Source of the DNA: a virus
DNA length: 64,000 nt
Direction: 5' to 3' (one strand)
IMG/VR virus record: IMGVR_UViG_3300032675_001827
Coordinates: 1 to 64,000 of that record
Positions 9,367 through 14,087 of the stretch are shown piece after piece. Positions within the stretch are counted from its first letter, which is position 1. Every line of letters begins with the position of its first letter. Position numbers and translations under genes: made by a program. The notes beneath the pieces are model-generated. The model ran no database searches and was not told where the DNA came from. It was given only the letters and a program-made list of their open reading frames with translations.

Positions 9367-11204
<1,838 letters not shown>

Positions 11205-12368
11205 GAAGACTTTGACGAGCGTCTTGTTAATTACATGGCAGACGATTTTAAAAAGACTAACGGCATAGACTTACGCAATGACAAACTGGCTTTGCAGCGT
11301 CTACGCGAATCAGCTGAACGTGCCAAAATTGAACTGTCAAGCACAACAGAAACAGAAGTAAACATTCCATATGTTACTGCTGACGCAAGCGGTCCAAAAC
11401 ATCTTTTGTTAAAAATTTCAAGGGGTAAATTTGAAAGTTTAATAAGCGATCTAATTGAAAGAGCTATAGCTCCTTGCAAAGCTGCACTAGCCGATGCTGG
11501 TTTAAAGCCCGGTGACATAAAAGAAGTTATTCTAGTTGGTGGTTCAACACGTATTCCTGCAATTCGCAATGCTGTTAAAAACTTCTTCGGTAAAGAACCT
11601 AGCAATGCTGTAAATCCTGATGAGGCCGTTGCCATAGGAGCTGCCATTCAAGGTGGTGTTCTTCAAGGTGACGTTAAAGATGTACTACTTCTTGACGTTA
11701 CACCTCTTTCACTTGGTTTGGAAACATTAGGCGGAGTGTTTACACGATTGATAGATCGGAACACTACTATTCCAACAAGAAAGAGCCAGGTTTTTTCAAC
11801 AGCAGAAGACAATCAAAATGCAGTTACAATAAGAGTTTTCCAAGGGGAACGCGAAATGGCTGCTGATAACAAGCTTCTTGGGCAATTTGATTTAACAGGT
11901 ATACCGCCTGCACGCAGAGGAACACCTAAAATCACTGTCACCTTTGATATTGATGCTAATGGAATTGTTTCAGTAAGTGCCAAAGATGAAGCAACAGGAA
12001 AAGAGCAACAAATTACTGTCACTGCAAACGGTGGACTGTCAGACGAAGACATTCAACAAATGGTAGCCGATGCTGAGAAAAATAAAGCAGCTGACCAGGC
12101 TAAAAAAGAAATGGCAGACGCACGCAATGCAGCACAGGCCGCTATTAATTCAGCTGAACGTCAAGTTGAAGAAGGTGAAGATCTTGATCAAAATCTAGTA
12201 GATCAGCTGAATGCTGCTAAAGCAGAACTGCAGAATCTACTAAATGATGACGCTGTTGCTTTAGATCAATTACGAGAAGCAAGCAGTAAACTGATTAATG
12301 CATCAATGGCTCTTGGTCAAAGTCAGTATCAAACAATTAATCCAGAAACGGCTTCAACTGAGCAATAA
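11205..12368 (+). CDS. dnaK: DnaK (Hsp70 chaperone), exon 2
   Basis: 387 residues completing DnaK. It opens [17 protein letters not shown] and contains [22 protein letters not shown], the [14 protein letters not shown] adenosine-binding strand, [11 protein letters not shown], the linker-like [19 protein letters not shown] and the beta substrate-binding domain (ENQN-type [16 protein letters not shown]). The helical lid is present ([15 protein letters not shown]...) but the protein ends ASTEQ without the EEVKDKK tail of E. coli DnaK. An upstream ORF extension to 11088 is intron sequence. The gene ends in a strong bidirectional terminator shared with the convergent release-factor gene. Confidence 0.95.
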
Positions 12369-12370
12369 TA

Positions 12371-12401
12371 AAAAAGGTGTAGCTAAAAACTACACCTTTT
12401 T
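12371..12401. terminator. Bidirectional intrinsic terminator
   Basis: AAAAAGGTGTAG, seven-base loop, CTACACCTTTTT: a 12-bp perfect stem with A-tract and U-tract on both sides. It ends both dnaK and the convergent release-factor gene. Confidence 0.9.
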
Positions 12402-13092
12402 ACCATAATAAGTCAATCATTCCTTTTGACAATTGTCTTGTGTTAATAGTTTTATTATTTCTATGATCACAAATTTCATCATGCTGTAAACGATAGGTGC
12501 GTATTTTATCACCTCTCTGGCCAGACCCAACTTGTGCCTTTTTTTCTGAGCTTATTTTTTCATGCTGCTGTATACCAAAGTATTGTCGCAGTTTAGCAGT
12601 TAGATCGTTTTTAGCTTGGGTATAACTAGTTTCTCTACTGCGAGTCTGAGCCGTAACTGTGATTCCAGTTGGCGTATGGGTAAGCCTTATACTATTCTGA
12701 TGTTTATTTCTGTGCTGGCCTCCTTTACCTGTACCGCTGAACCACGATAAACTTAGATCTTTTTCATCTAATACAAACTCATTGGTCAAGTTTGGATCTA
12801 TAACACTAACGGTAACAGTACTGGTGTGCACTCTACCTTTTTTCTCAGTAGGTGGCACACGTTGCCATCGATGACCTCCGGCTTCTGCTTCAAGTTTTTC
12901 TAAATTTTGTCCTGAAAATTCAAGTGAGATGGCAAAATTGCCGTGCCCTTTTGTGCTGGGTCTCACATCTGCCCAGCGGCACTTTCAACCAACTCTGGTT
13001 GCTAGATTAAAATAGATGTCTGCTAAATCTTTAACTAACAGCTGACTATCAGCACCGCCTTCGGCAGCGTGTATTTCTATTATTCTACGCAT
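12400..13092 (-). CDS. RF1-type peptide chain release factor with in-frame UGA
   Basis: Starting at ATG 13092 (AGGAGA upstream), the frame encodes MRRIIEIHAAEGGADSQLL... and meets TGA at 12985-12987 (codon 36), then continues in the same frame to 12400 with KCRWADVRPSTKG. The product, 230 residues counting the UGA, contains GGHRWQRVPPTEKKGRVHTS, where PPT sits at the PxT stop-recognition motif of RF1 (UAA/UAG), and GTGKGGQHRNK with the universal GGQ that triggers peptidyl-tRNA hydrolysis. The N-terminal domain 1 of cellular RF1 is missing. In related sequences I recall a Trp at the UGA position (KGW). Options are UGA readthrough, a TGG-to-TGA mutation, or sequence error. Translation restarting at GTG 12966 would lack part of domain 2. 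Confidence 0.88.
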
Positions 13093-13157
13093 GCTACGTC
13101 TCCTTTTACATGGTTTCTATACTATTTAATTATTGTCTAAGAATGTCAAGAAAAGAC

Positions 13158-13563: not shown

Positions 13564-13592
13564 TTGGCTTATCGGAGTTAATGCTGTATAAT
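13564..13592 (+). promoter_or_regulatory. Sigma-70-like promoter abutting a repeated start codon
   Basis: TTGGCT, 17-base spacer, perfect TATAAT ending at 13592. Transcription should begin about 13599, the first ATG of the 15-nt repeat, giving a leaderless mRNA. Confidence 0.65.
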
Positions 13593-13598
13593 TTGCAT

Positions 13599-13688
13599 AT
13601 GGATAAAGTAGAAATGGATAAAGTAGAAATGGATAAAGTAGAAATGGATAAAGTAGAAATGGATAAAGTAGAAATGGATAAAGTAGAA
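13599..13688 (+). repeat. Six exact copies of a 15-nt repeat at a gene start
   Basis: ATGGATAAAGTAGAA repeated six times in tandem, encoding (MDKVE)6. Every copy begins with an in-frame ATG. The copies are identical, which points to slippage or unequal exchange; copy number changes keep the frame. Confidence 0.95.
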
Positions 13689-14087
13689 ATCATATTCAAA
13701 AAACAAATAGCTAATTCTCCGTGTATGGCAATGATGTTACAAGCTCATGCTGAACTAATTGAAAAAAGCTGGGCAATGAATATACTTCCGTTTGGGCATA
13801 AAAGCAGTTGCATTTATGCTCAAATTGAAAATGACATTGCAGGTGCTATAGTTTTTATTTTTGACCCTGATATTGAAGTTGTACACACTCAGTTATCCTA
13901 TGTGAAACCACAGTATCGTGGCCGGCGCATATACCAGTCAATGCACAAATACCTGCATGATTATGCACGTAAAGTCGGAGCGCATAGAATAACCAGTACA
14001 GTTCATATAGACAATCAGCCACTTTTGCAAGCAAGTACACGAAGCGGCATGACTACTCGCTGGGTTGCACAGATTTTAGAATTGTAA
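13599..14087 (+). CDS. GNAT acetyltransferase with N-terminal (MDKVE)6
   Basis: 162 residues. After the six-fold MDKVE repeat comes a GNAT core: IYAQIENDIAGAIVFIF, then LSYVKPQYRGRRIYQSMHKYLHDYARKVG with the R/Q-x-x-G-x-G/A-like acetyl-CoA loop (YRGRRI), and VHIDNQPLLQASTRSGM near the end. It should transfer an acetyl group to an unknown amine. The natural start is uncertain because each repeat supplies an ATG; the last, at 13674, leaves an intact GNAT domain. The promoter geometry suggests leaderless translation. The next gene follows two bases after the stop. Confidence 0.75.
   Translation: MDKVEMDKVEMDKVEMDKVEMDKVEMDKVEIIFKKQIANSPCMAMMLQAHAELIEKSWAMNILPFGHKSSCIYAQIENDIAGAIVFIFDPDIEVVHTQLSYVKPQYRGRRIYQSMHKYLHDYARKVGAHRITSTVHIDNQPLLQASTRSGMTTRWVAQILEL

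Follow-up and report, generated by a model that had tools for sequence, protein, structure and literature searches.

A conserved in-frame UGA in RF1-type release factor genes of phages, and its possible role in sensing translation termination

Introduction

To our knowledge, the textbook case of a release-factor gene that senses termination in bacteria is that of RF2 only. In a review of 2016, an RF2 gene with readthrough of an early in-frame UGA was described as expected and never found, and an RF1 counterpart of such a control was unknown (PMC5009743); in a survey of 2025, prfA showed no programmed control (PMC12421855). Among viruses, autoregulatory recoding of release-factor genes is known for the giant viruses of amoebae (PMC3521657), and our search of the open-licence literature gave no earlier report of release-factor recoding in phages.

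Here we report on a viral DNA of 64,000 nucleotides (positions 1 to 64,000 of the IMG/VR record IMGVR_UViG_3300032675_001827), hereafter the window. A sequence-only reading of this DNA had pointed to an RF1-type release factor gene interrupted by a UGA at codon 36, and had proposed that the synthesis of the phage factor is tied to scarcity of the host RF2. We compared this gene with its relatives in viral contigs, bacterial genomes and plasmids.

Results

The release factor gene of the window

The gene occupies 12400–13092 of the minus strand, from an ATG at 13092 to a TAA at 12400, and would encode a short RF1-type factor devoid of domain I, of 230 residues if codon 36 is read through. In the sequence, a Shine-Dalgarno-like element, AAAGGAGA (13099–13106, minus strand), is found 6 bases 5' of the ATG. 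The release factor frame is open except for the TGA at codon 36 (12985–12987, minus strand), which is aligned with the conserved Trp of cellular RF1. The coordinates, the PPT motif and the single interruption at codon 36, as initially read, were all confirmed on the sequence. The first 35 codons (12988–13092, minus strand) correspond to a strand and a long helix of the decoding domain and are followed, after the UGA, by its 3' context, codons 37–41 (12970–12984, minus strand). Sequence and alignment placed the PPT stop-codon recognition motif, of the RF1 type PxT, at 12847–12855 and the catalytic GGQ motif at 12715–12723 (both minus strand), and the Pfam domains PCRF and RF-1 (E-values 1.6e-21 and 6.3e-20) extend across the in-frame stop.

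The gene is convergent with dnaK, and a terminator-like hairpin, GGTGTAG/CTACACC followed by a T run (12370–12396, minus strand), separates the two. The dnaK gene (9382–12368, plus strand) is split by a group I intron region (about 10041–11170) with two Rfam Intron_gpI matches (E-values 5e-8 and 7e-4), which contains a GIY-YIG homing endonuclease-like ORF. On the other side, an acetyltransferase-like ORF (13581–14087, plus strand) begins with about six tandem copies of the peptide repeat MDKVE, visible as 62-base self-matches. No tRNA was found in the window; in many phages the release factor gene is located amid tRNA genes, in some of them with a tRNA-Trp(CCA) or a tmRNA close by, and thus in a neighbourhood of translation genes.

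As for the kind of factor, the nearest NCBIfam match is RF1, with 182 bits against a cut-off of 400 and 177 against 423, below equivalog level because domain I is absent: the match to the RF1 profile begins at profile position 107–115. The window protein shows the RF1 hallmarks PxT, the Gln ahead of PxT and GGQ. It falls outside RF2 (PPT in place of SPF; 112 bits against 370 for prfB) and outside PrfH (52.8 bits against a cut-off of 166.65). Among the members with UGA at codon 36, PPT or a close variant, the Gln and GGQ are conserved with few exceptions. Accessory factors have GGxD (97/97 and 59/60) in place of the GGxE of cellular release factors; in some of the sister genes described below, PPT is replaced by PPN, SPT or SPL. 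An AF2 model of the product (mean pLDDT 85.7) assigns residues 2–11 and 13–34 to a strand and a helix of the decoding domain, respectively, and places codon 36 in the turn ahead of the next strand; in structural comparisons the model was matched best by RF1 on the ribosome. On the basis of its RF1 motifs, the product would be expected to release at UAA and UAG.

Conservation of the UGA at codon 36

In the first scan of viral contigs the query carried X at codon 36, so that relatives were picked without any condition at this position. All of the 80 relatives recovered (46–100% identity) have TGA precisely at codon 36 and no further stop, and two further aligned scans gave the same result in 14/14 and 39/39 new viral loci. 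The same TGA is present in the five best short copies from bacterial genomes (Thalassospira, Jiella, a Rhodospirillales MAG, a Sphingomonas MAG and Gemmobacter caeni), each of which has two other full-length release factor genes, intact and stop-free, and in plasmid copies of Bosea and Rhizobium. Thalassospira xianhensis and Gemmobacter caeni DSM 21823 are among the carriers of a genomic copy. Bacterial and plasmid copies included, the total is about 145 loci, forming 97 clusters at 90% identity. A tally of 146/146 came from a parser that required a stop and is not independent, the unconditional counts being those of the 80, 14 and 39 loci; one of the parser's 146 (L255) is a member of the sister clade. 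A locus with another IMG sample id is identical to the window over 10,690 bases, TGA included, and may be the same phage; the nearest distinct relative has the TGA at 64% nucleotide identity. A distant DNA search in named phages gave no match.

Elsewhere in the genes of the family Trp is always encoded by TGG (211 TGG versus one TGA per gene), also at positions 117 and 230, where Trp is likewise invariant in an alignment of 24 diverse members. In cellular RF1 the residue aligned to codon 36 is Trp in 64 of 70 sequences; thus the initial statement that related proteins have Trp here holds for cellular RF1 but not for the closest phage relatives, all of which have UGA. Sense codons at this place in relatives had been named as an observation that would speak against the initial reading, and the opposite was found, in the 80 relatives as in the later loci. 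A few members of the family (L259, L262, L303, L109 and L084) are stop-free, and therefore the control is not essential everywhere.

Two further observations concern the bacterial copies and their annotation. The Gemmobacter caeni copy lies in a stretch (L107, 1–10675) with 18 tRNAs, a Pth2-like peptidyl-tRNA hydrolase, and Thg1-like and Sir2-like ORFs; this stretch resembles an integrated phage or a mobile element. Public annotation misses the genes at L183 6001–6681 and L185 5971–6675, with an antisense ORF given instead in Bosea and the gene split at the in-frame TGA in Variovorax.

Selection and RNA context

Comparison of the cluster representatives gave a dN/dS of 0.07 over codons 1–35 and of 0.12 from codon 37 to the end. 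Strong purifying selection therefore acts on both sides of the UGA, and it is the full-length product that is maintained. The in-frame UGA of the window gene is real, not an error, and its conservation is far beyond chance. This conservation and the selection on both flanks support the proposal of a programmed UGA in a phage gene of RF1 type, and exclude an error or a pseudogene.

The synonymous constraint is highest in the gene just after the stop: at codons 37–41 the identity of synonymous codons is 2.2–2.9 times the expected value, compared to a mean of 1.17. The UGA is followed by A, G or C and in no case by T, and +4U is reported to lower readthrough (PMC5289835). The constraint is raised also at codons 9, 12 and 16 (within codons 9–16, 13045–13068 of the window, minus strand). 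A consensus fold of 32 relatives gave only two small hairpins, one of four pairs that encloses the UGA and a conserved one at codons 9–13, with hardly any covariation, and a hairpin directly after the UGA of the window, strong by eye, was no better than shuffled sequences (z = −1.14); neither the window fold nor the consensus of 32 relatives thus revealed a convincing conserved RNA structure after the UGA. In a candidate pairing of codons 12–13 with 38–40, the glycine bases are invariant. The marks of programmed readthrough, namely conservation of the in-frame stop and of its context and coding selection before and after it, are all found here.

UGA as an ordinary stop codon

In the window, TGA ends 17 of the 58 long ORFs, and three of these overlap the next start as ATGA (19052, 40538 and 45850). 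The same holds more widely: TGA ends 220 of 702 ORFs in 90 phage loci, and 127 of 290 and 108 of 287 ORFs in two phage records read whole (336 and 364 kb, respectively). No tRNA with a UCA anticodon was found in these two records, nor among 1,500 tRNAs across all loci, and no in-frame stop was found in the ribonucleotide reductase of 12/12 related phages. The view that UGA is a normal stop elsewhere in this DNA, and a simple code change unlikely, was therefore well founded, given the stop usage of the window, its ATGA overlaps and the lack of a UCA tRNA.

Four related jumbo phages encode tRNAs with the anticodon CUA, of the amber suppressor type (L070 6837–6911, L078 8851–8926, L321 7560–7635 and L353 3408–3482). 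Both wholly read records are among them, and in these two TAG is scarce as a stop (16/290 and 11/287 ORFs).

Sister genes with frameshift cassettes

A wider search recovered short RF1-type genes that are out of frame after the stop, so that a +1 shift is needed, in 60 clusters. The slip codon is CTT in 60/60 and, with one exception, is aligned to codon 36; the stop that follows is TGA in 47 clusters, TAG in 11 and TAA in 2, and an SD-like GGAGG or similar sequence stands just 5' of the CTT in 52/60. As judged from these elements, the cassette is a predicted prfB-type frameshift placed in RF1-type genes. A published record of a 485-kb phage (LR745208) has such a gene (L087), which contains CGGAGGGGTCTTTGA. 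The window gene does not belong to this type, as the sequence after its stop stays in frame 0. In a third group, TGA or TAG occurs in frame at codons 45–47, about ten codons later. Within the frameshift clade, which of the three codons serves as the regulatory stop showed no association with the recognition motif.

A quick tree unites the accessory factors in one clade apart from cellular RF1 (SH-aLRT 99), within which the codon-36 readthrough group is also one clade (support 99), and the recoding state changes at least 11 times. Since the deep branches are weakly supported, the direction of these changes is left unsettled. Taken together, the conserved UGA at codon 36, the sister cassettes and the stops at codons 45–47 argue that programmed stop-codon recoding is probably widespread in the accessory RF1-type genes of phages. 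The idea of the sequence-only reading is thus broader than stated, as it extends to a whole family, to two recoding mechanisms and to versions with UAG.

Discussion

We consider it probable that the codon-36 genes produce an accessory RF1-type factor through readthrough of the UGA by Trp when RF2 is low, and that this factor feeds back on termination. Host RF2 would normally end translation at codon 36, giving just a 35-residue fragment. If RF2 were scarce or busy, termination at UGA would be slow and the near-cognate tRNA-Trp(CCA) could read the codon, in a competition between RF2 and this tRNA that would be tuned by the 3' context. Insertion of Trp, the residue present there in cellular RF1, would then allow the full factor to be produced. 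UAA termination is common to RF1 and RF2. The new factor could then take over termination at UAA (and UAG), which would free RF2 for UGA and close the loop, and the supply of phage RF1 would track termination capacity. The loop would be indirect, because the factor has RF1 motifs and should not read UGA. Trp insertion, gating by RF2, UAA/UAG specificity and feedback are what we infer from the genes and their distribution. A precedent for gating by RF2 exists in prfB mutants of B. subtilis, in which UGA suppression rises from 6% to 19–54% (PMC7918605).

The predicted prfB-type cassettes of the sister genes strongly support a release-factor-dependent control of the codon-36 family. In the frameshift clade, a UAG or UAA at the regulatory stop is not explained by scarcity of RF2 alone. 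Since UAG and UAA occupy the same position in the sisters, the general theme may be the sensing of termination capacity, with UAG suggesting a direct autoregulation by RF1.

Other explanations have to be weighed against readthrough gated by RF2. Code change, pseudogene, assembly error, selenocysteine codon and restart downstream could each yield one in-frame TGA in a lone sequence, but as a general account they are refuted, and we give them practically no weight. The use of UGA as Trp (genetic code 4) is ruled out by the TGA stops, by the intact ribonucleotide reductase and by the lack of UCA-anticodon tRNAs, which, with a hairpin after the UGA that is not significant, speaks also against a selenoprotein. 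Sequencing error and pseudogene are discarded on the basis of 97 conserved clusters and a dN/dS of about 0.1 on both sides. For a restart 3' of the UGA, in-frame start codons are present in only 20/97 clusters, at scattered positions, and the N-terminal 35 residues belong to the decoding domain. A switch dependent on the stage of infection appears very unlikely. In this view, which follows the model of code-switching phages, the UGA would become readable late and turn the factor on, through tRNA modification, RF2 inactivation or extra tRNA-Trp of phage or host origin. The gene is often within tRNA arrays, some with tRNA-Trp(CCA), and RF1-encoding phages with UGA = Trp are near the codon-36 group in the tree, but no UCA suppressor tRNA occurs among the 1,500 tRNAs, ribonucleotide reductase has no in-frame UGA, and the chromosomal and plasmid copies bear the codon-36 UGA as well.

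The UGA could also be a constitutive leak, which limits the amount of a release factor that would otherwise be toxic and senses nothing. One leaky stop in a fixed context would suffice for this, and release-factor overexpression has a fitness cost in B. subtilis, far more for RF2 than for RF1 (PMC12421855); yet a weak ribosome binding site would be equally good, one and the same codon is kept in 97 clusters, and in the sisters its place is taken by a sensing cassette of prfB type, which makes a mere leak improbable. Somewhat less improbable, though still unlikely, is a true autoregulation in which a factor of widened specificity terminates at UGA, also at UAG and UAA, and represses its own synthesis as RF2 does. 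Such a broad factor could sense each of the regulatory stops of the sisters (TGA, TAG or TAA), and both the change of GGxE to GGxD and the replacement of PPT in some sisters would be in line with it. Nevertheless, PxT with Gln is the RF1 signature and is retained in the readthrough members with few exceptions, and recognition motif and regulatory stop show no link.

In a wider perspective, phages and mobile elements may have evolved release-factor sensors repeatedly, by UGA readthrough at codon 36 or about 46 and by CTT frameshifts at UGA, UAG or UAA, with a factor that may read all three stops; we regard the arguments for and against this as evenly balanced. If true, the UAG versions would be the missing autoregulation of RF1, and the UGA readthrough version the circuit foreseen for RF2 before sequencing and never found in bacteria. 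Both designs, readthrough and frameshift, are found in RF1-type genes of large phages, and this suggests a monitoring and repair of termination capacity by phages while infecting. With its readthrough, frameshift, UGA, UAG and stop-free versions, the family would also provide a natural series for testing how one control becomes another, and it is a warning that annotation pipelines split or miss such genes.

Among the known systems, the +1 frameshift of RF2 (prfB) resembles the window gene in having an early UGA in a class I gene, with the full product made only past the stop. The sister clade shares its cassette (SD-like sequence, CTT, stop and often a C next), whereas in the clade of the window the factor is of RF1 type and the predicted event is in-frame readthrough rather than frameshifting; moreover, some sisters have UAG as the stop, which was seen for prfB in 0 of 8,164 bacterial genomes (PMC12421855). 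In the release factor gene of Mimivirus and Megavirus, a viral class I factor is likewise expressed through internal stops, by readthrough and frameshift (PMC3521657), but there the factor is of eukaryotic/archaeal type, a single gene of these giant amoebal viruses combines both events, and neither the protein nor the hosts are related. PrfH, which acts on damaged ribosomes, is also a short class I factor without domain I, with distant homology and a structural match to the window factor; the latter has the RF1-type PPT motif and scores under the cut-off of the PrfH profile. Finally, phages using code 4 (UGA = Trp) have RF1-type genes with in-frame UGA and are near the codon-36 group in the tree. 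Huge-phage genes of RF1 type with in-frame TGA, mostly two per gene (L082, L083, L085, L086, L227 and L294), form a group of their own, in phages where UGA apparently stands for Trp. In the code-4 phages the UGA codons of the RF1 gene are at other positions and TGA ends only 5 of 47 ORFs, whereas in the window UGA is a normal stop and the release factor gene has it at codon 36 only.
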